From the NCBI GenBank assembly GCA_018821985.1, contig JAHJKP010000007.1, positions 1 through 64,000 of the forward strand: a DNA stretch of 64,000 bases, read 5' to 3'. Every line of letters starts with the position of its first letter. Position 1 is the first letter of the stretch. The stretch comes from Pseudomonadota bacterium (GTDB lineage: Bacteria > Desulfobacterota > Desulfobulbia > Desulfobulbales > Desulfocapsaceae). The notes under the pieces were generated by a model. It was not told where the DNA came from. It was given only the letters and a program-made list of their open reading frames with translations, and ran no database searches. A program made the translations under genes and the position numbers. Shown one piece after another: positions 1 through 28,308 of the stretch.

Positions 1-198
1 ATTACTTCCTATCAATTTCTGTAGGCGCTCTATCTCGTCTGCAGCTTCATGGAGCACGTTGCAATGAGGCCAATCATTCTCGGCAGCCCTTCTTGCACTG
101 TTCCGCAGTCGTGTAGTCAGTTTGATTGTGATGGTCGATTTCTCAGTAACTTCCCTTTCCAATGGTTCGGCCATCATTTCGATTTCTGACTTATTCAT
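1..198 (-). CDS. Small phage/plasmid-type hypothetical protein, cut by the window edge
   Basis: An open frame starts at ATG 198 behind a GGGAGG Shine-Dalgarno and runs off the left edge after 66 codons without a stop. The protein begins MNKSEIEMMAEPLE and continues to an LHEAADEIERLQKLI stretch. That kind of short charged helix ending is common in small phage and plasmid accessory proteins, but I cannot name a family. It is the last visible gene of the minus-strand recombination operon, and a structured leader hairpin (222-264) sits just upstream, as for its four neighbours. Function unknown. Confidence 0.6.
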   Translation of the reverse strand, partial: MNKSEIEMMAEPLEREVTEKSTITIKLTTRLRNSARRAAENDWPHCNVLHEAADEIERLQKLIGSN

Positions 199-221
199 GA
201 TTTTTCCTCCCTAATGAAAAA

Positions 222-264
222 GGGGCAAGACTTCCCCTGCAGGGGTTGTTTTGCCCCTGGTGGG
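222..264 (-). promoter_or_regulatory. Leader hairpin copy A (double stem) before the first partial gene
   Basis: Read on the minus strand, a CCCACCA lead-in is followed by an outer 7-bp stem (222-228 with 251-257) and an inner stem (234-237 with 242-245), with asymmetric internal loops between them. It ends in a short T run and is followed closely by the Shine-Dalgarno of the downstream gene. It is one of five related copies (A-E) that differ in arm sequence but keep the same pairing. Confidence 0.7.
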
Positions 265-278
265 AAATGCACTTACGG

Positions 279-554
279 TTATTGAATTTCGCTGTATTCG
301 GTAATCAATACCGGCCCTGCAATATAGTCGTCGTCCATGCCACCACTTGCATGGAGCATTTTAGTGGCATCAGGATTAACTTGGTGCGGCTTCAACTTGC
401 CTTCTTCGTCAAGCCACATTACTCGACCATCCTCTATGGTAATTGCTTGCACCATAGTGCAGGAAAGCAGAGAATACATTTCGTTCAGCGTAAATTCATT
501 TTCCTTCGCATAAACATTTGTTGTGATTCCATCGGGTGTGATAAGTACAGCCAT
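279..554 (-). CDS. DUF3846-like small protein
   Basis: A 91-residue protein starting MAVLITPDGITTNVYAKE, with a late MDDDYIAGPVLIT segment. The opening VLITPDG strand and the closing D-D-x-I-x-G-P-V-L-I pattern resemble DUF3846 proteins, which occur in phages and conjugative elements and have no established function. A GCCTCC (Shine-Dalgarno GGAGGC on the coding strand) lies just before the ATG at 554. The gene sits between ssb and the partial gene in one minus-strand operon, and leader hairpin B precedes it. Family assignment is by eye and moderately sure. Confidence 0.65.
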   Translation of the reverse strand: MAVLITPDGITTNVYAKENEFTLNEMYSLLSCTMVQAITIEDGRVMWLDEEGKLKPHQVNPDATKMLHASGGMDDDYIAGPVLITEYSEIQ

Positions 555-581
555 GATCTTGCCTCCTGAAAAAGTAAAAAA

Positions 582-623
582 GGGGCACGACTTCCCTTTC
601 AGGGGTTGTTTGCCCCTGTTGGG
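582..623 (-). promoter_or_regulatory. Leader hairpin copy B (double stem) before the DUF3846-like gene
   Basis: The outer stem is 6 bp (582-587 with 611-616); the inner stem is 594-597 with 601-604. On the coding strand it has the same CCCAaCAGGGGCAAACAACCC start as copy A, with altered loop bases. It lies between the end of ssb and the Shine-Dalgarno of the DUF3846-like gene. Confidence 0.7.
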
Positions 624-661
624 TGAACTGTTGATGAACTGGTTTTTTATGCTACGTCAGA

Positions 662-1060
662 TTAAAACGGAACGTCGGTGTCCGGCAATGGTGGGTTATC
701 CCCATTAGGAGCCGAAGACGAGTCAGTTTCCTTATCAAAATTATTGCCACCAAGCATTTCCATACTCTTGGCAATAATCTCAGTGGTGTATCGAGTAATA
801 CCGTTCTCTTCCCACTTTCTGGTTTGCATCTTACCCTCAATATAGACTTTCGAGCCTTTCTTGAGGTGATCTCCGCATATTTCGGCCAGTCCTCTCCAGG
901 CTACAATTCGGTGCCAGTCGGTATGCTCCTGCTGTACTCCTTCTGCATCTTTCCACTTTTCAGTAGTAGCGACAGAAAAAGTGGCCACAGCAGTGCCTTT
1001 CTGGGTGTAACGAATTTCTGGGTCATTGCCTAAATTGCCGATTACCATTGCTTTGTTCAT
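662..1060 (-). CDS. ssb: Single-stranded DNA-binding protein
   Basis: A 132-residue OB-fold SSB. The opening MNKAMVIGNLGNDPEIRYTQ, the central HRIVAWRGLAEICGDHLKKG and the GSKVYIEGKMQTRKWEE strands are typical of the family. The last residues DTDVPF form the acidic tip that in other SSBs recruits partner proteins. It coats single strands during replication or recombination. Here it lies between a Cas4-like nuclease and a DUF3846-like gene, in an operon with a Rad52-like annealing protein, so it is probably the element's own SSB and not the housekeeping copy. Leader hairpin C precedes it. Confidence 0.95.
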   Translation of the reverse strand: MNKAMVIGNLGNDPEIRYTQKGTAVATFSVATTEKWKDAEGVQQEHTDWHRIVAWRGLAEICGDHLKKGSKVYIEGKMQTRKWEENGITRYTTEIIAKSMEMLGGNNFDKETDSSSAPNGDNPPLPDTDVPF

Positions 1061-1092
1061 GATGTTGTTCTCCTAAAAGGATCGATAAGGTT

Positions 1093-1141
1093 CAGGAAAA
1101 TACATATCCCCACAATGGGAATTGTTTTTCCCTGACATGGG
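1093..1141 (-). promoter_or_regulatory. Leader hairpin copy C (double stem) before ssb
   Basis: The outer stem is CAGGAAAA (1093-1100) against 1126-1134 with one bulged C. The inner stem is 1107-1110 with 1117-1120. The outer arms share little sequence with copies A and B, yet pairing is kept, which is the signature of a conserved RNA fold. The CCCATG lead-in is retained. Confidence 0.65.
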
Positions 1142-1142
1142 T

Positions 1143-2141
1143 TTATGCTGCTTTTTTGGTTGTGGCTGGTTTGATTGCTTTTGACTTTTTGATCTCCAGG
1201 AAAGAAAACGAACTTGATTCCTGAAAATCATTTACCGTATGGCCCTGGTCAGCCAAGAACGCTGTCAGGCGGCTGATATCAAAAGACTTGCGGGAACGGA
1301 TTGCTTTGGAAAGGATACTGCCATTGACTTTAATCGGATGCCCTGCCCTTTCTACGATCTGAAACAGATTGGCTTTTTTGGGTTCGATCTGGTTTTTCAG
1401 GCTTTTTTCCTTCTCTTGCAATTCCTGTAATTCTGCCACTGTATTTTCCAGCTCCGGAACCTCTTCGGCTGCAAATCTTGGACAGGTGGTGAGATGATTG
1501 CAATAGCCACATAAAGGGCTGGGTTCGGTTGCTGGTTTTACTGGATGGCCGATCAACATGAACTGATAATTTGTCCAGATAGTTGAAGCCCGTTCGAGTA
1601 ATCCTGCATACATTGTATCCTCTGGGGTATATCCATTAAAAAAACCAACCTCGCCGCTACCCAAATCAATTGCCAGTACCGCAGCCTTGATCGTGTAATC
1701 AGGAAATTGTTCTTTTAACGCTCCCATCTGCATGTACAGTTGAGATTCCCAGGAGGCGTAAGGAACATCGGGAAGTGAGCTTACGCTCTTAATCTCCAGA
1801 ATGGCCTTAATTTTTGGTTGGGTAGATGTAAAGACAAAGTCGATATGGACTTTGATAGGTGTGGTACCGGAAGCAATAACCTCAACCTGACGGTCAAAAT
1901 TATCATAGCCGGCAGCGGTCATTGCGTTTGCGACAATATCCTCGGCCATATGTCCTCTTTGGAAGCGGAGCAATGTGGCAAGGTCATGTTCACCGGGTTG
2001 AAGCCGTTCAAAAATTACCTTTCGTGGGCAAGTTCCAATATCGGATGCGCCAAGGTAGCTGCTTCGATCTCCAAGGGTGGTCAGGGTGTGTTGTTTGCTT
2101 AATGCCTGCAGACTGGTCAATAAAAGGGTTTTCATGTCCAT
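1143..2141 (-). CDS. Cas4/AddB-like PD-(D/E)XK nuclease with Fe-S cluster cysteines
   Basis: A 332-residue protein with a RecB/Cas4-type nuclease core: D101 in HIDFVF, E116-x-K118 in AILEIKS, and the QLYMQ helix at 134-138. One cysteine at 38 (IGTCPRK) and three at 211, 214 and 220 (CGYCNHLTTC) have the spacing of the 4Fe-4S ring that closes Cas4 and AddB nucleases. Residues 228-255 look coiled-coil, and a lysine-rich tail ends the protein. The start at 2141 has AAGGAGG six bases upstream. With the Rad52-like protein and SSB next door, the most likely role is the exonuclease of a phage-style annealing recombination module. No cas genes are nearby, so CRISPR adaptation is unlikely. Confidence 0.85.
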   Translation of the reverse strand: MDMKTLLLTSLQALSKQHTLTTLGDRSSYLGASDIGTCPRKVIFERLQPGEHDLATLLRFQRGHMAEDIVANAMTAAGYDNFDRQVEVIASGTTPIKVHIDFVFTSTQPKIKAILEIKSVSSLPDVPYASWESQLYMQMGALKEQFPDYTIKAAVLAIDLGSGEVGFFNGYTPEDTMYAGLLERASTIWTNYQFMLIGHPVKPATEPSPLCGYCNHLTTCPRFAAEEVPELENTVAELQELQEKEKSLKNQIEPKKANLFQIVERAGHPIKVNGSILSKAIRSRKSFDISRLTAFLADQGHTVNDFQESSSFSFLEIKKSKAIKPATTKKAA

Positions 2142-2171
2142 GTCGGTCCTCCTTCAAGTGTGTAGAGTTGA

Positions 2172-2222
2172 GGGAGAAGACACGGATTCCCCTTGAGGGA
2201 ATGGTGCTGCTCCCCCAGTGGT
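2172..2222 (-). promoter_or_regulatory. Leader hairpin copy D (double stem) before the nuclease gene
   Basis: The outer stem is GGGAG (2172-2176) with CTCCC (2210-2214); the inner stem is ATTCCC (2186-2191) with GGGAAT (2197-2202). Arm sequences differ from A-C while the two-stem layout is conserved. The element lies between the rad52-like stop and the nuclease Shine-Dalgarno. Confidence 0.65.
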
Positions 2223-2247
2223 TAAAAACGTTTTTTATGAGTCTGGC

Positions 2248-2931
2248 TTAATGGGTCAGTTCTTTGTACCAGTTCTTTTGCTCTTTATTCCATTTGAAAC
2301 CCGCCGATTTCAGTAGTTCCTTCTTATCGAAGAGTTTGCTGCCTACTGCCACGACAAAACCGTCAAAATGCTGATAGTCGATACCGGCAATTTTAGGTAA
2401 GGACGCAGAGGAAGCAGATTCTGGTGGAATGAGTAAAGTCTGAACTGGTGGTTGTGGTATCGGCTGCTGTACAGGTTGAGGTGATGATGCTGGTTGCGGC
2501 TTGTGTTGTGAACTGTGTGGCTGGGTAGAGTTGTAAATATTCCCAAGGAGACCACGGTAAGCGTCGCTGCCAATGCTGACCAGAGAAAAGCATTTCTGAA
2601 TCGCATCAGTGATCGCTCCTTTCTGGGCATCGCCAACATTACCTCGAACAATTTGCATCTGTCCCTTGTGGGAACCTTTACAGAGCCAGTCGTTATCTAT
2701 TTTCAAAAATAATCTGACTTCTGCCACTGCCTGTGCCTCAAATATTTCTTCTTTGATCAGTTCATAACGCCAGTTATCGGGTGAAATGATTTGATTGACT
2801 GCGTCAAAAACATACTGCGGCCTGTAGCCATAGCGAATTTGACCTCCGAAATCTATTTTCTGGACAGCATTGATGCCAAAACTTCTGAGCAGTTCATTGA
2901 TTTCGTTGATTTTTACGGTCAGTGTTGACAT
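2248..2931 (-). CDS. Rad52-like single-strand annealing protein
   Basis: A 227-residue protein. Residues 1-135 match the bacterial/phage Rad52-Rad22 pattern, with GNVGDAQKGAITDAIQKCF followed by SLVSIGSDAYRGLLG, where a lone strand-annealing protein folds into a ring. Residues 136-180 are a proline, serine and glutamine-rich linker. The last 45 residues (FDGFVVAVGSKLFDKKELL, then AGFKWNKEQKNWYK) form a small separate domain of the KSAGFKWN-x-x-x-KxWY type seen at the ends of other DNA-processing proteins. It heads the minus-strand operon with the nuclease and SSB, forming an annealase-exonuclease-SSB set like the bet/exo/ssb set of SXT-type elements. Start 2931 has AGGAG upstream. Confidence 0.8.
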   Translation of the reverse strand: MSTLTVKINEINELLRSFGINAVQKIDFGGQIRYGYRPQYVFDAVNQIISPDNWRYELIKEEIFEAQAVAEVRLFLKIDNDWLCKGSHKGQMQIVRGNVGDAQKGAITDAIQKCFSLVSIGSDAYRGLLGNIYNSTQPHSSQHKPQPASSPQPVQQPIPQPPVQTLLIPPESASSASLPKIAGIDYQHFDGFVVAVGSKLFDKKELLKSAGFKWNKEQKNWYKELTH

Positions 2932-2960
2932 GTTTTTTTCTCCTGTGGATGTTGATTATA

Positions 2961-3008
2961 GGAGAAAAAAACTATACCCCTGTCGGGAGTTATTTTTCTC
3001 CCGGTGGG
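2961..3008 (-). promoter_or_regulatory. Leader hairpin copy E (double stem) before the rad52-like gene
   Basis: The outer stem is 9 bp (GGAGAAAAA 2961-2969 with 2993-3001); the inner stem is 2978-2980 with 2985-2987. It is preceded on the coding strand by ACCCACC. This is the first copy of the series, nearest the presumed promoter. Confidence 0.65.
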
Positions 3009-3041
3009 TTGGTACTGCTTATGGATGTTCAAAAACAAGAA

Positions 3042-3071
3042 ATTTTAAAACACATACAAAACAATACGCAA
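3042..3071 (-). promoter_or_regulatory. Possible sigma70-type promoter of the recombination operon
   Basis: On the minus strand, TTGCGT (3066-3071) and TAAAAT (3042-3047) are 18 bp apart, upstream of leader hairpin E. The match is only moderate and the region is AT-rich, so this is tentative. The rest of 3009-3464 shows no convincing gene. Confidence 0.3.
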
Positions 3072-3464
3072 TGACTTGAGATGTAATAGTATTTTACTTC
3101 TTGAGATTGACTAAAAAGAGGTGTGGGGGTGCAAAAAGAATGAAGATTCAAGTGTAAAAAATGAATCTTGTTGGAGCGGGCCATAACTGCATTCACAAGA
3201 GGAAGTTCGCTTTTGCGATTAAACTATTCTGTAAAATTTTATATGGCTGACACAAGGTTCCAAGGGTCAATTATTCAATCATTAAAAGAAAGAATGATGC
3301 CCAGCTATTTCCCGGAAGGGATTACTTAAATGAATTAAGTGGAATTTATATTCAAAATAAATCTTCTTTTTTATGAAAAATCAAGAAAATTCTTCAATAC
3401 TGCACGAAACGACACCTTGTCTTAGTAGCCCATCTGCGCTAAATATGCATGACAGAGGTGAATC

Positions 3465-3533
3465 ATGGGAAAAACAGCCACCGTGCGCGCCCGTATTCAG
3501 CCAGGGCTGAACCATTGGATCGAAAAGCCTTAA
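3465..3533 (+). pseudogene. Truncated RelB/DinJ-type antitoxin remnant
   Basis: A 22-codon frame reads MGKTATVRARIQPGLNHWIEKP and then stops. The first 15 residues have the ribbon strand of RelB/DinJ antitoxins (xVRARI-P-L), but the rest of the usual 80-90 residues is missing. It lies just before the Fic gene and overlaps none of it. It looks like a leftover of a toxin-antitoxin pair cut by recombination. It is too short to be certain. Confidence 0.45.
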
Positions 3534-3555
3534 AGCATCAAGGGAAGGAGGACCT

Positions 3556-4593
3556 ATGAGTAACCAAGCACCCTACCAACCACCCTACACCATCACCCCG
3601 GCCATTGTGAATCTGGTCGCGAAGATCAGTGAAACCGTCGGGCGCTTGTCAGTACTGACCGATGCCGCCAAGGTACTGCGGCTAAGGCGTATCAACCGCA
3701 TTCGCACCATCCGGGGATCGCTGGCCATCGAAGGCAACACCCTGAGCGAGGAACAGATCACTGCGATCCTGGATGGCAAGCTGGTCATCGCTCCACCCCG
3801 GGAGATTCAGGAGGTGCGTAACGCCATTACAGCCTATAACTGTTTCGAACAGTGGCGCCCGGAGACGGAAGCGGAGTTGCTGGATGCGCACCGAATCCTT
3901 ATGGCTGGGTTGATTGATAACGCCGGGGCCTATCGGCGCAGCGGCGTGGGGGTGATGGCAGGTGGTCAGGTTATCCATATGGCACCCCCGGCGGATCGTG
4001 TTCCAGTATTGATGCACGATCTGCTCCAGTGGATAGATGCCTCCGACCAACATCCATTGATTACCAGCTCGGTATTTCATTACGAGTTCGAATTTATTCA
4101 TCCCTTTGCGGACGGCAATGGCCGCATGGGGCGGCTGTGGCAGACATTGATTCTGACTCGCTGGAATTCACTGTTTTCCGATATCCCGGTCGAAAGTCTA
4201 GTCCATGAACATCAAGCGGAGTATTATCAGGCATTACAAGAGAGCACGGAACAGACTGATTCTATGTTTTTTATTGAGTTCATGCTCAAGATGATTCTTG
4301 ACGCCGTATCGTCTGCCACCCCCCAAGTCGCACCACAAGTCACCCCCCAAGTCAAACGTTTGCTGGCAGTCATAGATAAAGAGATGACTCGCGAGGAACT
4401 CCAAAGTGCCCTCGACTTACAGGACCGCAAGTCATTCCGCGAGCGTTATCTCAAGCCTTCCCTTGCCGAAGGATTGATCGAAATGACCATCCCCGAAAAA
4501 CCCAACAGCCGCTTACAGAAATACCGTCTGACCGACAAGGGACAACGCTGGTTGCAGGGGCGTAATAGTAAAGAAGCACCAACCTCCGTATAG
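3556..4593 (+). CDS. Fic family protein (class II, self-inhibited type)
   Basis: A 345-residue Fic protein with the complete active motif HPFADGNGRMGR at 182-193, so AMP (or another nucleotide) transfer to a target protein is expected. An N-terminal S-L-A-I-E-G-N stretch (55-61) fits the inhibitory (S/T)xxxE(G/N) helix, placing it in the group that restrains itself without a separate antitoxin. After residue 255 comes a repeated TPQV-APQV-TPQV linker and then a winged-helix-like C-terminal domain, the usual layout for this family. GGAAGGAGG precedes the ATG. Base composition is more GC-rich than the flanking DNA, suggesting separate arrival. The target is unknown. Confidence 0.92.
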   Translation: MSNQAPYQPPYTITPAIVNLVAKISETVGRLSVLTDAAKVLRLRRINRIRTIRGSLAIEGNTLSEEQITAILDGKLVIAPPREIQEVRNAITAYNCFEQWRPETEAELLDAHRILMAGLIDNAGAYRRSGVGVMAGGQVIHMAPPADRVPVLMHDLLQWIDASDQHPLITSSVFHYEFEFIHPFADGNGRMGRLWQTLILTRWNSLFSDIPVESLVHEHQAEYYQALQESTEQTDSMFFIEFMLKMILDAVSSATPQVAPQVTPQVKRLLAVIDKEMTREELQSALDLQDRKSFRERYLKPSLAEGLIEMTIPEKPNSRLQKYRLTDKGQRWLQGRNSKEAPTSV

Positions 4594-5015: not shown

Positions 5016-5753
5016 ATGCAAACCCAATATAACGAAATCATCAATTCTTTTGTCGATAAGTACGGCCTGAGCCGTGGCCAGATCATTGCCGAGATTGAAA
5101 AAACTCTTTCGGCCATGCTATCGCAGTGGCACGGTACAAGCACGGTTGTTCTGTTTGGTGATGATCAGCTTCAGGCCCTACGCTACGCCGAACATCCAGG
5201 CATGACCTTGCAGAATCAGCTTGAACTTATCTCTGCAAGAGGCTGGAATACCATTGTTAGAGTACTCGATCACAATCTTGGTCAAGCCGCCTGTCTGCAC
5301 GAAGTGGCCCATTACAAGCGGCGGGAACAGGAGATGCGCTGGGGAGAAATCATCCGCAGGAATGATGATGGATTTCTGGTGGAATTGGAGATCGAAGAAG
5401 GCCAGCCCATCCTTGCCGAATGTCCCTGGAATCGTATCGGGGTGCATGAGCGGAAAGAGTTGTCCGTCGGCCAGAAGCGGGCATTTCATTTGCGCCGTAT
5501 TGACCCAATACTGTTGCGCGGTATTGCCCGGGTTCAGGTAACGGTTGATCGAGTCTCAAAAAACCTGGTGACCACCCTTTTGCGGGAGCACCTTGGGGGA
5601 ACGACAGGAATCCATGTTCATTGCGTTAAACGCTATGTAGGCCACAAAAGTTTTGTAGCGGCCAGTGGTTTCCTGCCTAAAAATATCATCAAGGCCGTAT
5701 CGCAAGAACTGCGGGAGCATATTCAGGTATCAGTTGGAGAAAAGAAGATTTGA
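5016..5753 (+). CDS. NusA-like (S1/KH-resembling) hypothetical protein of a conjugation-like operon
   Basis: A 245-residue soluble protein with no family I can name firmly. Residues 105-170 (RWGEIIRRNDDGFLVELEIE to LSVGQKRAFHLRRID) read like an S1 domain. The following VDRVSKNLVTTLLREHL and HVHCVKRYVGHKSFVAAS match the order of the NusA S1-to-KH1 junction. The similarity is by pattern only. An AGGAGG lies 14 bases before the ATG, a longer gap than usual. The gene overlaps the start of the TraD-like gene (TTGA overlap at 5750-5753), so the two are probably made together. Confidence 0.6.
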   Translation: MQTQYNEIINSFVDKYGLSRGQIIAEIEKTLSAMLSQWHGTSTVVLFGDDQLQALRYAEHPGMTLQNQLELISARGWNTIVRVLDHNLGQAACLHEVAHYKRREQEMRWGEIIRRNDDGFLVELEIEEGQPILAECPWNRIGVHERKELSVGQKRAFHLRRIDPILLRGIARVQVTVDRVSKNLVTTLLREHLGGTTGIHVHCVKRYVGHKSFVAASGFLPKNIIKAVSQELREHIQVSVGEKKI

Positions 5754-7114
5754 TTTGGCGGAAAAAACAGATGGAACCATGGACCCATATCGGCACAGGT
5801 ATTCATCTGGACCATCCAGACAAGATAATGCCGCTTGGGCTTCCTGATAGTCACCGCAAGGGACATTTCTGGTGTTTTGGGACAACCAGGGTAGGCAAAA
5901 CCCGCACCATGGAGGGGATTATCGAGCAGGACATCCGCAAGGGATATTCCGTGGTAGCCATCGACCCCAAGGGCGATATTGATCTGTTTTCCAAGATCGT
6001 TCAGGTGGCACTCGATACAGGCCGGGAAAAAGATTTAATGCTCATCACCCCTATCTTCCCCCAATACAGCGCCACCCTTGACCCCCTTTCCACCTATTAC
6101 ATGATCGAAGAACTGGTGGCCCATGTCACCGCTGGCGTGGCACTGGGGAAAGAACCGTATTTCTTCTCTGTAGCCTACGAGATCAGCCTGGTGGTGGTAC
6201 AGGCCCTCGTCCTGCTGGCCGAAGCAACTGGAAGAAAGCCGTCCTTCAACCTCAACGAGATTAAAAACCATATCAGTCACCAGGACCTGGAGAAACTCAA
6301 AGAGAAGATCGACTATATCGACACGCCGCAGGCCCAGCAACTTGCCCTGGATTTACAAAAGATACTTTCCACTCCGGCAGATTACTATTCCAAGGTTGCC
6401 AGTTCCTTACGTGTCGCCCTCACAGAATTGACTTCGGGCAATGTAGGTCAGATTATCGGTCATGCCGATGAAAACCGTTTTATTGATCGCCTGGAGCAAA
6501 ACAAGGGGGTCATCATGGTGGTTCAGCTAGGATCCCTGCTTACCAAGCGGGCGGCTTATACCGCCGGCAAAGTCATCGCTTCCATGATTCAGGCTTTTGT
6601 TGGCCGCAGATATTCCAGCGACAAACAAGTTACCCCGCCCTTGTCCCTGCATATTGATGAGGCTCAATCTGTTCTGTACCAGGGGATTGAAGAACTTTTC
6701 GCCAAGGCCGGCGGAGCTGGGGTCTATATCCATGGTTATTGCCAGTCTGTCAGTCAACTCTATGCCGAAATTGGCATTGATCGAGCAAACACTATCCTGG
6801 ACAATTGCAATACCAAGCTGTTTATGCGGGTACCGGATTCCAAGACTGCAAGCTATGTCTCGGAGCATCTTGGGGAAAAAAGAGTTTTCAGCCCGATTAT
6901 TTCTTTGGGCGGCGGCCTGTCCATCAGAGAAACCGAAGATGTGCGGGTGAAGCATACCGAGGTGCTGAGTATGGCTCCAAGGCAGTTCTTTCTAACCACC
7001 TATTCCGGGATTTACCGAGGAATAACGGCGGATGTTTCTGGTGCCAGTCTCAGGGTGATCTTTCCAGAAATAAGGCCTCAATGGTCAGCAGGGGAAGCAG
7101 AGGGAACCGTATGA
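5750..7114 (+). CDS. TraD/VirD4-type conjugative coupling ATPase, soluble form
   Basis: A P-loop ATPase with Walker A GTTRVGKT (residues 44-51) and Walker B LSLHIDEAQS (DE at 303-304), and a VVAIDPKGD segment after the P loop typical of TraD/TraG coupling proteins. These hexamers feed DNA into a type IV secretion channel. It is 454 residues and lacks the N-terminal membrane helices of classical TraD. The membrane anchor may come from its operon partners, which do have such helices. The TTG start at 5750 overlaps the previous stop and has GGAGA upstream; ATG at 5771 (MEPWTHIGTG) is the alternative. Its stop overlaps the next ATG (ATGA). Confidence 0.8.
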   Translation: MIWRKKQMEPWTHIGTGIHLDHPDKIMPLGLPDSHRKGHFWCFGTTRVGKTRTMEGIIEQDIRKGYSVVAIDPKGDIDLFSKIVQVALDTGREKDLMLITPIFPQYSATLDPLSTYYMIEELVAHVTAGVALGKEPYFFSVAYEISLVVVQALVLLAEATGRKPSFNLNEIKNHISHQDLEKLKEKIDYIDTPQAQQLALDLQKILSTPADYYSKVASSLRVALTELTSGNVGQIIGHADENRFIDRLEQNKGVIMVVQLGSLLTKRAAYTAGKVIASMIQAFVGRRYSSDKQVTPPLSLHIDEAQSVLYQGIEELFAKAGGAGVYIHGYCQSVSQLYAEIGIDRANTILDNCNTKLFMRVPDSKTASYVSEHLGEKRVFSPIISLGGGLSIRETEDVRVKHTEVLSMAPRQFFLTTYSGIYRGITADVSGASLRVIFPEIRPQWSAGEAEGTV

Positions 7115-8478
7115 ATACTGTTCAGGTTAAGACCGTCCTGAGCATAGCACTTTTATTACTGCTGGGAACAAGCTGTTTTCTCCTCTGGAGATCAGGGAAA
7201 AAAACATCTGTTGCCAAGCGGAAAATCCCGCAGGATATAGAGGCCCTTGTTGTCGATGGGAAAATACCGCTGCAGGATATAGCAGCGCAGTTATGGCTTA
7301 AAAGAGGAGAAGTCCATATTGCAGAATTGGCTCCGATCTGGCGGGAGGAAAAGGTACAGGTTGCCACCGACAAACCATGTGAGTTTGAGAACAGACGAAT
7401 ACAGGCTTTTTATGCGGAGCATGTTCAAAAATTGCGTAATGCCAGTCAACAGCAAGAGGTATGCCGTAACCTTTTGTCATTGCTGGATAGAGAAGGTCAA
7501 TGCCCGTCTGTGGTCAATGCCTCCGACGACGTGGAAGCCTCTTGGGATTCCAACACATATACCTTGCTTGGCAAAACAAATCTTCTCGACCATTCCTTGA
7601 ATGTGGCCTTACAGATAATCCAGCTACTGCAGGAATCTAATGCCGATCATATCGTACCGGATGCCCTGGTTGCGGCTTTGGCCCATGATCTGGGGAAACT
7701 GCCCTCTATCCGCGGTCATTTGTACAGTTTAGGCGAACATCCCTTGGCCGCTGGTCGTGTCCTGGCCGGGCTTGAATCATTCAAGCAGCTTGTTAAACAA
7801 GAGGAAATTTCACGAGCCATCAAACTCCATCACAAGCGGCCTGACGACGTTCTTGGCAAGACCTTGAAGCGAGCAGATCAACTTGCCCGGCAAGAAGAAA
7901 TGGAGCAAGCCTTGGAACAACTACCGCCCTTAGAGGAACCGGCGAAAAAACGAAAAATTGAAAAAACGCAGGTGGATTTCCTTGCCCCAGAAGACGCTGA
8001 AAAGAAAATGGAAGTCCCCAAACTCATTGACCTGTCCAGATGGTTTGACGCCCCTGCTTTTCTGGAACAGATGCGGCCCCATATCAACAAGGTTACAGCT
8101 GGGAGGAAGTTCATGGCCTTTTCAATGCCCAATGGCTATGTCTATTTTCAGCCAAAAGTCCTGGAAGAGATCGCCAAAAAACAGGCGGAACGTGCCGGAG
8201 TGCTGGATGTGGCAACCATGGAGGCAGATGAAATGCGGCAGGTATTGTTATCTATCGTTTTTCAGCTTCGGCGGGAGGATGTCATTGCAGATATTGGTTT
8301 GAAAAAGAATTATTTCGGCGGGTACTTCACTATTAACATGAAATCAAAAAACAGCATGAAGGGCTACTACACGCCCTGCCATGCTGAGGCTTTTGGCTCT
8401 ATTGCTGTCATGGAATCGCTCAAAACCGGCATTCTTCTAGATTTTGTTTCCGTTGAATCATTTCATGAGGAAAAATAA
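7111..8478 (+). CDS. Membrane-anchored HD-domain protein, possible MOBH-type relaxase
   Basis: A 455-residue protein with one N-terminal membrane helix (about 6-27). An HD-hydrolase core follows: H161 (LLDHSLNVA), H192-D193 (ALAHDLGK), H210, H240-H241 (KLHHKR) and D256. Residues 270-300 are charged and helical, and 305-455 form a second domain that looks like a winged helix. HD folds occur in the MOBH relaxases of SXT/R27-type elements, and the gene directly follows the coupling ATPase with an ATGA overlap. A relaxase or relaxase-accessory role is therefore a reasonable inference, but an ordinary HD phosphohydrolase is possible. I chose ATG 7111 because of that overlap; the frame is open further upstream. 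Confidence 0.65.
   Translation: MNTVQVKTVLSIALLLLLGTSCFLLWRSGKKTSVAKRKIPQDIEALVVDGKIPLQDIAAQLWLKRGEVHIAELAPIWREEKVQVATDKPCEFENRRIQAFYAEHVQKLRNASQQQEVCRNLLSLLDREGQCPSVVNASDDVEASWDSNTYTLLGKTNLLDHSLNVALQIIQLLQESNADHIVPDALVAALAHDLGKLPSIRGHLYSLGEHPLAAGRVLAGLESFKQLVKQEEISRAIKLHHKRPDDVLGKTLKRADQLARQEEMEQALEQLPPLEEPAKKRKIEKTQVDFLAPEDAEKKMEVPKLIDLSRWFDAPAFLEQMRPHINKVTAGRKFMAFSMPNGYVYFQPKVLEEIAKKQAERAGVLDVATMEADEMRQVLLSIVFQLRREDVIADIGLKKNYFGGYFTINMKSKNSMKGYYTPCHAEAFGSIAVMESLKTGILLDFVSVESFHEEK

Positions 8479-28232: not shown

Positions 28233-28308
<76 letters not shown>

Follow-up and report, generated by a model that had tools for sequence, protein, structure and literature searches.

Translational riboswitches and attenuators are built on anti-Shine-Dalgarno (anti-SD) and anti-anti-SD helices. 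In the phages T4 and RB69, the single-strand-binding protein of gene 32 represses its own mRNA at translation through a leader structure, the autogenous operator treated in PMC535899. The STAXI RNA motif (RF01728) consists of tandem pseudoknots and is placed by its entry in PMC2864571 in Enterobacteriales, near ssb and other DNA-handling genes of mobile DNA; the same survey lists the radC RNA motif (RF01754) for Proteobacteria. On conjugative plasmids, the stem-loops known as Frpo carry -10 and -35 boxes and lie upstream of ssb on F and of other leading-region genes, as outlined in PMC9849209 and PMC11541004. The present analysis concerns the leaders of a recombination operon at the left end of a 64,000-nucleotide stretch of DNA from a bacterium of the Desulfocapsaceae (positions 1–64,000 of contig JAHJKP010000007.1, assembly GCA_018821985.1; hereafter the window). 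The minus strand of positions 1–3008 encodes a Rad52-like protein, a RecE/Cas4-like exonuclease, a single-strand-binding protein (SSB), a DUF3846 protein and the start of a small protein.

The original prediction had described one structured hairpin in front of each of these five genes. On the minus strand, all five elements were located to within a few bases of the predicted positions, in the interval that separates the SD of a gene from the gene (or region) preceding it. The outer arms pair as claimed, with a bulge in the SSB copy. The proposed CCCAnC-type lead-in was right for four of the five copies, which carry CCCA, and wrong for the exonuclease copy, which reads ACCACTG.

Two alternative folds matched to each gene

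One nested unit of five segments stands at each gene start. Read 5' to 3', it consists of a lead-in of CC followed by C, T or G (segment 1), a purine arm (segment 2), a C-rich segment 3, a loop, a G-rich segment 4 and a pyrimidine-rich arm (segment 5), followed by a linker of about 6–20 nucleotides, the SD and the start codon. In fold B, segment 2 pairs with segment 5 (2:5) around a 3:4 helix, which is the hairpin originally predicted. In fold A, segment 2 pairs with segment 3, segment 1 with segment 4 around it where this helix is present, and segment 5 lies on the SD and the spacer, in some leaders including the start codon. Since their helices compete for shared nucleotides, the two folds are mutually exclusive. 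The variation of the arms from gene to gene follows from the double requirement on segment 5, which has to be complementary to segment 2 and also to the SD/start region of that gene. For the whole leaders of the window, the minimum free energy structure given by RNAfold is fold A for the DUF3846, exonuclease and Rad52-like genes and fold B for SSB and the 66-residue open reading frame (ORF) that begins the small protein. A single fixed hairpin per gene, as first proposed, does not describe these leaders. It is only half of the device, and the pairing of segment 5 with its own SD/start region had been missed. Judged from sequence comparison, the probability that each leader is a gene-specific, bistable translational switch of five segments, with one fold hiding and one exposing the SD, is about 70%.

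To define the set for swapping, leaders were selected on fold B alone (score of at least 28), giving 141 distinct leaders, of which 129 share their locus with two or more further gene families. Each segment was paired with its own partner and with those of the other genes in that locus. Segment 5 paired better with its own SD region than with the mean swapped one in 112 of 129 leaders (−11.8 versus −8.5 kcal, p = 4.5e-16), and did so in 99 of 129 for the last 10 nucleotides alone, including the start codon. The own helix was likewise better than the mean same-locus swap for 2:5 (127/129), 2:3 (111/129) and 3:4 (107/129); for the negative control, 2:SD, the count was 55/129. After thinning to 46 leaders whose segments 5 differ, permutation gave a z of −16.7 for 2:5, −11.1 for 3:4, −8.7 for 2:3, −8.0 for 5:SD, −7.4 for segment 5 against the last 10 nucleotides, −0.5 for 1:4 and +1.9 for 2:SD. 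The segment-5 nucleotides used by both helices differed little, 9.9 for own and 8.7 for swapped partners in the first set. Both 2:5 and 5:SD are thus matched gene by gene, which is the alternative pairing that defines an SD-sequestering translational RNA switch.

Replication was carried out in loci not used to form the idea, at a fold-B score of at least 30; these sets were not thinned for relatedness, so that their z values overstate certainty, and the contrast with the control loci, not the size of z, is what counts. The values for 5:SD, 2:3 and 1:4 were −12.6, −11.9 and −5.2 in the same order (99 leaders of 273 starts), −10.1, −7.5 and −2.8 in the phylum (51 of 144), −5.8, −5.1 and −1.3 on named plasmids of Thermodesulfobacteriota, for which the starts given by the depositors were used (27 of 60), and −2.6, −2.8 and −1.1 in Campylobacter upsaliensis (8 of 12). 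Six remote control loci (L116–L121) showed no switch signal: 23 of 101 starts passed and the 2:5 z was −12.1, yet 5:SD gave −0.5 and 2:3 +1.2. In Thermovibrio, where 10 of 12 starts passed, z was −2.8 for 5:SD, +1.3 for the last 10 nucleotides and −1.3 for 2:3. Shuffled upstream regions passed in 18/273, 16/144, 3/60 and 0/12 cases for the four replication sets in the order given, in 7/101 for the control loci and in 4/12 for Thermovibrio.

The hairpins themselves exceed chance. A descriptor of the outer and inner stem only, the structure seen by the earlier reader, reached its cut-off of 30 in 136 of 181 leaders of the operon gene families and in 4 of 98 dinucleotide shuffles. It also did so at 20 of 246 other gene starts of the same loci, several of which are operon genes outside any family cluster. 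A separate descriptor written as a regular expression missed most long-arm leaders, and a strict pattern had no matches. When 140 SD-bearing ORFs of the window were scanned, five besides the known leaders reached totals of 74–85; four of these five have no lead-in and none has a CCC/GGG inner stem. Taken alone, the total score lacks specificity: a value of 80 is reached by 10 of 12 starts in Thermovibrio, where neither the 2:3 nor the spacer match is significant. A covariance model, R1, was built from ten short-arm leaders, two rows having wrong lead-in letters, and gave 189 matches at E ≤ 1 in 811,405 bases from 59 sources, some of them reverse-strand images. The best 150 of these matches amount to 133 distinct rows, in which both partners vary at 12 of 14 pairs, compared with 6.9 in shuffles. 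The alignment of these same 150 of 189 was made to fit the structure and contains some hairpins as reverse-strand images; in it, 92.1% of cells pair versus 86.3% in shuffles, with 0 of 500 as high. Covariation of the predicted fold B is confirmed, and the descriptor enrichment, the swap tests and this covariation support the earlier proposal of selection on RNA shape.

MAFFT alignments across gene families were misaligned, with arms shifted by a base, and for this reason the tests rest on per-leader pairing against swaps. Within one family, the 16 DUF932 leaders aligned without structure, RNAalifold picks the 5:SD helix, with UA replaced by CG in three sequences and CG by UA in six. Of its cells 96.8% pair, as against 34%–50% when the helix is slid, and nine cells are changed on both sides, as against 4.3 in shuffles (0/500).

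The default state was approached through transcripts cut after segment 4, using 131 leaders (the 141 minus ten without a clear lead-in). The minimum free energy structure contained 2:3 in 126, 1:4 in 124 and 3:4 in four; with segment 2 shuffled, 2:3 fell to 44%. For the whole leader, fold A was favored in 111 of 141, with a mean A–B gap of −3.5 kcal (sd 5). The SD is also less open in 136 leaders (0.31) than in 228 other genes of the loci (0.44). Fold A, with 2:3, 1:4 where present and segment 5 on its own SD/start region, would block translation; fold B, with 2:5 around 3:4, would keep segment 5 off the SD and permit it. The 5' part would fold as 2:3 first, and with fold A usually the more stable, the energies suggest off as the default. 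A default-off translational switch is the most likely mode of action, although it is read from energies, which cannot prove it.

Several results weigh against a bistable switch, in addition to the inflated z values of the replication sets. The 1:4 helix was better than swaps in only 68 of 129 leaders (p = 0.098), and its support is confined to the same-order and phylum sets, though in several leaders it looks convincing on inspection; shuffling the lead-in left 1:4 present in 82% of cut transcripts. In a 5 × 5 swap within the window, segment 5 favors its own SD for the SSB, exonuclease and Rad52-like genes but not for DUF3846 and the 66-residue ORF (three of five). C. upsaliensis showed no match in the last 10 nucleotides (z +0.5). 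In the DUF932 5:SD helix only two of eight pairs vary on both sides, a number reached by 334 of 500 shuffles, and RNAalifold found no structure in the alignment of the Rad52-like gene leaders, because MAFFT shifts the arms by a base. Finally, errors in fold energies are as large as the mean A–B gap. Even so, the comparative support for the proposed gene-specific two-state translational leaders is strong.

Trigger and competing explanations

Of 318 leaders, 249 could be anchored, the rest being dropped for a lower score or missing anchors. Nothing is constant among the 249 but the runs CC, CCC and GGG, which the anchoring requires, and the loops vary in length and letters. Because the loops are not conserved, a small-molecule aptamer or a loop-reading protein is unlikely, and any factor should read shape or single strand instead of loop sequence. 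The ligand-based regulation offered in the original prediction is unsupported on the same ground. The remaining candidates for the trigger are SSB, the annealase, a helicase or ribosomes arriving from upstream. Tentatively, and with failure considerably more probable than success, the trigger may be feedback by the SSB or annealase that the operon encodes, through molecules not occupied with DNA; for T4 and RB69, such feedback by the free protein is reported for gp32 (PMC535899). In the proposed model, one factor or condition would flip all copies together. A broader proposal, equally speculative, is that one shape-reading factor, perhaps the element's SSB or annealing protein, toggles at least ten genes through locks that share no binding sequence. 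Each lock would fit one start region only, gene plus leader would form a portable cassette able to join the same program anywhere, and the leaders would double as crossover points.

A translational relay competes with these proposals for the trigger, and not with the two folds: a ribosome ending the upstream gene would open segment 1 and flip the leader, so that each gene depends on translation of the preceding one. Segment 1 indeed begins a median of 23 nucleotides past the upstream stop (111 leaders), but the spacing is wide (5%–95% range, 1–136 nucleotides) and the operon's first gene, for which no partner is annotated upstream, carries such a leader as well. The relay is therefore doubtful.

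As an alternative to a switch, the hairpin could be static, with fold B acting alone as an mRNA stabilizer, processing site or insulator and the 5:SD match a by-product, expected when an SD rich in purines meets a pyrimidine-rich arm. That 2:5 is the most strongly matched helix fits this, as does the likeness of all SDs, which makes swapped 5:SD energies already high (−8.5 kcal). Such a by-product should not, however, favor the own SD over swapped ones down to the last 10 nucleotides, nor be missing from remote loci with equally good hairpins, and no selection on 2:3 would be expected; a static hairpin is thus unlikely, slightly more so than the relay. Fold A alone could instead serve as a constant brake that leaves each SD half closed, with low expression and no switching. 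Both the frequency with which fold A is favored and the less open SD regions agree with a brake. It needs no 2:5 helix, yet 2:5 is matched gene by gene above any other, and this explanation is improbable.

Compact repeated leaders with alternative folds do resemble the expression platforms of riboswitches, and a small-molecule riboswitch or an operator for a loop-reading protein would account for that resemblance; with no conserved aptamer nucleotides outside the helices, where only CC, CCC and GGG are constant, we regard it as quite improbable. Intrinsic terminators or transcription attenuators are less probable still: at least five T occur in the eight nucleotides after segment 5 in 44 of 141 leaders, and positions 1–3600 of the window hold 10 terminator-like sites versus 3.7 in shuffles, but 97 of 141 have no U-run and termination does not need a match to the SD. 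Frpo-type single-stranded DNA promoters of a leading region, suggested by hairpins that precede ssb-type genes of conjugative elements, can be set aside, since a sigma-70-like −35/−10 pair occurs in 0 of 141 hairpins and in one of 141 whole leaders (97 nucleotides) versus 10.7 in shuffles, and the match to the SD would be left unexplained.

Distribution of the leaders and the operon of the window

With the exonuclease profile, matches came from 22 of 93 family genomes, from 39 of 257 in the order at E 1e-10 (a count that takes in the family) and from 18 of 395 sampled across the phylum, members of the order among them. Operon loci were taken from the family (L040–L069), the order (L090–L108) and the phylum (L109–L121), with L006, L007 and the window added and L003 dropped as a duplicate of L042. 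At a total score of at least 71, leaders precede 31 of 31 exonuclease genes, 28 of 30 rad52, 18 of 27 ssb, 11 of 17 RadC and 15 of 16 DUF932 genes. The corresponding counts are 7/12 for the DUF6094 methyltransferase, 8/11 for the small 66-residue type, 6/11 for a 185-residue protein, 10/11 for an SNF2-like helicase, 7/8 for DUF3846, 5/5 for DUF2786 and 3/3 for a 108-residue protein. Eight genes in a row have a leader in L063. Two distant operons, L110 and L111, also have leaders; in both, the annealase is replaced by what we take, by eye, to be a RecT-like protein.

Possession of a leader depends on the upstream gap. Among 163 operon genes with a gap of less than 400 nucleotides, a leader is found in 129 of 140 with a gap of at least 70 nucleotides and in three of 23 with a smaller one. 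With a score of 80, the plasmid pPRO1 of Pelobacter propionicus has leaders in 10 of 12 genes with gaps of at least 50 nucleotides and in none of six below, and pSD of Geobacter anodireducens in nine of 14 and one of eight, respectively. Nearly each separately started gene therefore owns a leader, and tightly following genes mostly have none. This association and the swap tests support the earlier view of one leader type before each gene that acts at translation.

In the family, R1 matches 17 of 91 genomes at E 1e-5. The exonuclease is present in 16 of these, and the exception, G062, has a RadC/108-residue/DUF932 piece of the operon. R1 is biased toward the short-arm type and fails to match six exonuclease-positive family genomes. 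Five of them have leaders by the descriptor (L052, L054, L060, L062 and L066, L067), and the sixth is G058 (L031). Among plasmids, the fold-B score was passed by 12 of 23 starts on pSD, 12 of 19 on pPRO1, eight of 12 in C. upsaliensis (NZ_OU701460) and only three of 18 in Desulfosarcina sp. BuS5. The homologous operons of C. iguaniorum (1/14) and Nitrosophilus labii (0/14), L125 and L126, have mostly short gaps, and their exonuclease is 51% identical to that of C. upsaliensis. One hairpin in these 28 starts versus eight in 12 suggests that leaders are gained or lost as a set. In Thermovibrio ammonificans, an ssb/Rad52-like operon on pTHEAM01 (L128, 238–7502) has a gap of about 100 nucleotides and a long gene-specific hairpin before nearly every gene. 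Its 5:spacer and 2:3 matches are not significant, and in some leaders the minimum free energy structure pairs a pyrimidine run before the hairpin with the SD instead; these hairpins are possibly an analogous, different device. Group II introns (RF02001, RF02005) lie near operons at L063 57–221 and L124 20328–20575. A phage origin was considered and rejected, as tblastn with the Rad52-like protein of the window and the exonuclease of L110 found no phage record. In viral contigs, the Rad52-like alignment had no relative, and the exonuclease search gave a single distant exonuclease-like locus (L009), whose upstream stretches showed no such leader in a by-eye look only, made without a scan.

In the window, all operon features lie on the minus strand, with arm boundaries as called by script. 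The leader of the Rad52-like gene spans 2960–3007 (segments 1 to 5 at 3004–3007, 2993–3002, 2986–2990, 2976–2980 and 2960–2969). Its segment 5 has the SD/start region at 2929–2949 as its fold-A partner, and the own 5:SD duplex, at −17.6 kcal, is the best in its row of the 5 × 5 swap. The gene itself (2248–2931) encodes a 227-residue Rad52-like annealase whose match to Pfam Rad52_Rad22 (E 0.009) is below the Pfam cut-off; the protein is 35.8% identical (E 2e-18) to an annotated Rad52/Rad22 family protein of Thermovibrio. The exonuclease leader (2169–2221; segments at 2218–2221, 2204–2217, 2196–2202, 2186–2192 and 2169–2183) pairs in fold A with 2139–2159, again with the best duplex in its row (−17.4 kcal). 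The 332-residue product of the exonuclease gene (1143–2141) matches the RecE-like recombination exonuclease phrog_434 (E 1.1e-14) and the Cas4-domain exonuclease phrog_1990, and a Pfam search gave no match at E 0.001. Next comes the SSB leader (1092–1140; segments at 1137–1140, 1123–1135, 1116–1122, 1106–1112 and 1092–1104), best with its own SD/start region at 1058–1078 (−11.2 kcal), followed by the gene at 662–1060 (132 residues; Pfam SSB, E 5.3e-38).

The DUF3846 leader (578–622) has its lead-in at 619–622, segments 2 to 4 at 611–620, 601–604 and 594–597, and segment 5 at 578–587 and into the linker (588–593); R1 matches it at 580–628. With its own SD/start region (552–572) segment 5 gives −11.9 kcal, second in the row behind the exonuclease SD at −14.5. 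The gene (279–554) encodes 91 residues (PF12957, E 2.2e-10). The leader of the 66-residue ORF, which spans 1–198, is cut by the contig end and has 97 residues in the relative locus L041, lies at 221–260 (segments 2 to 5 at 248–258, 242–245, 234–237 and 221–231) and is matched by R1 at 220–269 (E 4e-16). Its segment 5 reaches only −7.5 kcal with its own SD/start region (196–216) and −16.7 with that of DUF3846. The rest of the operon is on contig C8 of the same genome (L131, 1–3184, 3184 bases), which is identical to the left edge of the window over 141 bases and carries beyond this overlap a 72-residue gene, RadC, DUF2786 and DUF932; R1 finds three further leaders there (E 1.2e-14, 7.3e-10 and 4.3e-8). 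On the plus strand of the window, a Fic family gene (3556–4593), a TraG/TraD-type coupling protein (5750–7114) and an HD-domain protein (7090–8478) are as expected of a conjugative element. A tRNA gene lies at 28236–28308 on the minus strand.

The weak match of the 66-residue ORF leader coincides with a rearrangement. In L041, the leaders of the methyltransferase and of the 97-residue gene share one core. The window has the DUF3846 gene, then that core, then the 97-residue-type gene, and lacks the genes between the two leaders in L041 (methyltransferase, 63-residue, 185-residue and helicase). A BLAST match from one side (90% over 490 bases) and one from the other (95% over 264) meet with an overlap within the leader, at 196–270 of the window, which indicates that leaders have served at least once as a crossover site. 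The junction appears to mark where a deletion or swap crossed over, and the 66-residue ORF leader, with its weak 5:SD match, is a crossover point between two leader types. In L066, a 111-residue protein that is not Rad52-like by family (oriented position 2277; L066:15390-15725:-) has a leader very like that of the Rad52-like gene, and leaders may thus travel independently of genes.

Comparison with known systems

Usual operons share one leader; here, up to a dozen genes would each have a private two-state leader matched to its own ribosome-binding site. Such leaders are found in Thermodesulfobacteriota, where islands and plasmids carry them, and on a single plasmid of Campylobacter. If they do switch, they would amount to operon-wide translational control without a conserved binding sequence. 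A conjugative element could then open or close its recombination and DNA-protection genes together, and the arrangement would offer a simple design rule for synthetic riboregulators. It also raises a directly testable question, namely whether translation of the element is governed by how much free SSB or annealase is present.

Literature searches restricted to open-licence papers, preprints excluded, listed no report of this leader. At gathering score, Rfam 15 gave no match to the leaders, and none to STAXI, in the window or 16 related loci. With E up to 10, positions 1–3600 of the window had three matches far below cut-offs, none of them on the five leaders as such and none to STAXI. STAXI shares with the present leaders a position near ssb and DNA-handling genes of mobile DNA, but the leaders are not tandem pseudoknots. 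The name of the radC motif, which has 149 positions, points to a gene also found in this operon type; its best match in the source genome, on contig C40 and away from the leaders, scores 18.7 bits against a cut-off of 40 and was rejected. In contrast to Frpo, the leader hairpins are free of −10 and −35 boxes and matched to the SD. With gene 32 they have in common an SSB-type gene under a translational leader, although here leaders precede at least ten genes and the regulator is only hypothetical. Closest in principle are the translational riboswitches and attenuators, which likewise have two mutually exclusive folds, one of them sequestering the SD. The leaders described here differ from that class in lacking a conserved loop or aptamer, in occurring once per separately translated gene of the operon, and in having arms matched to the SD of each gene.

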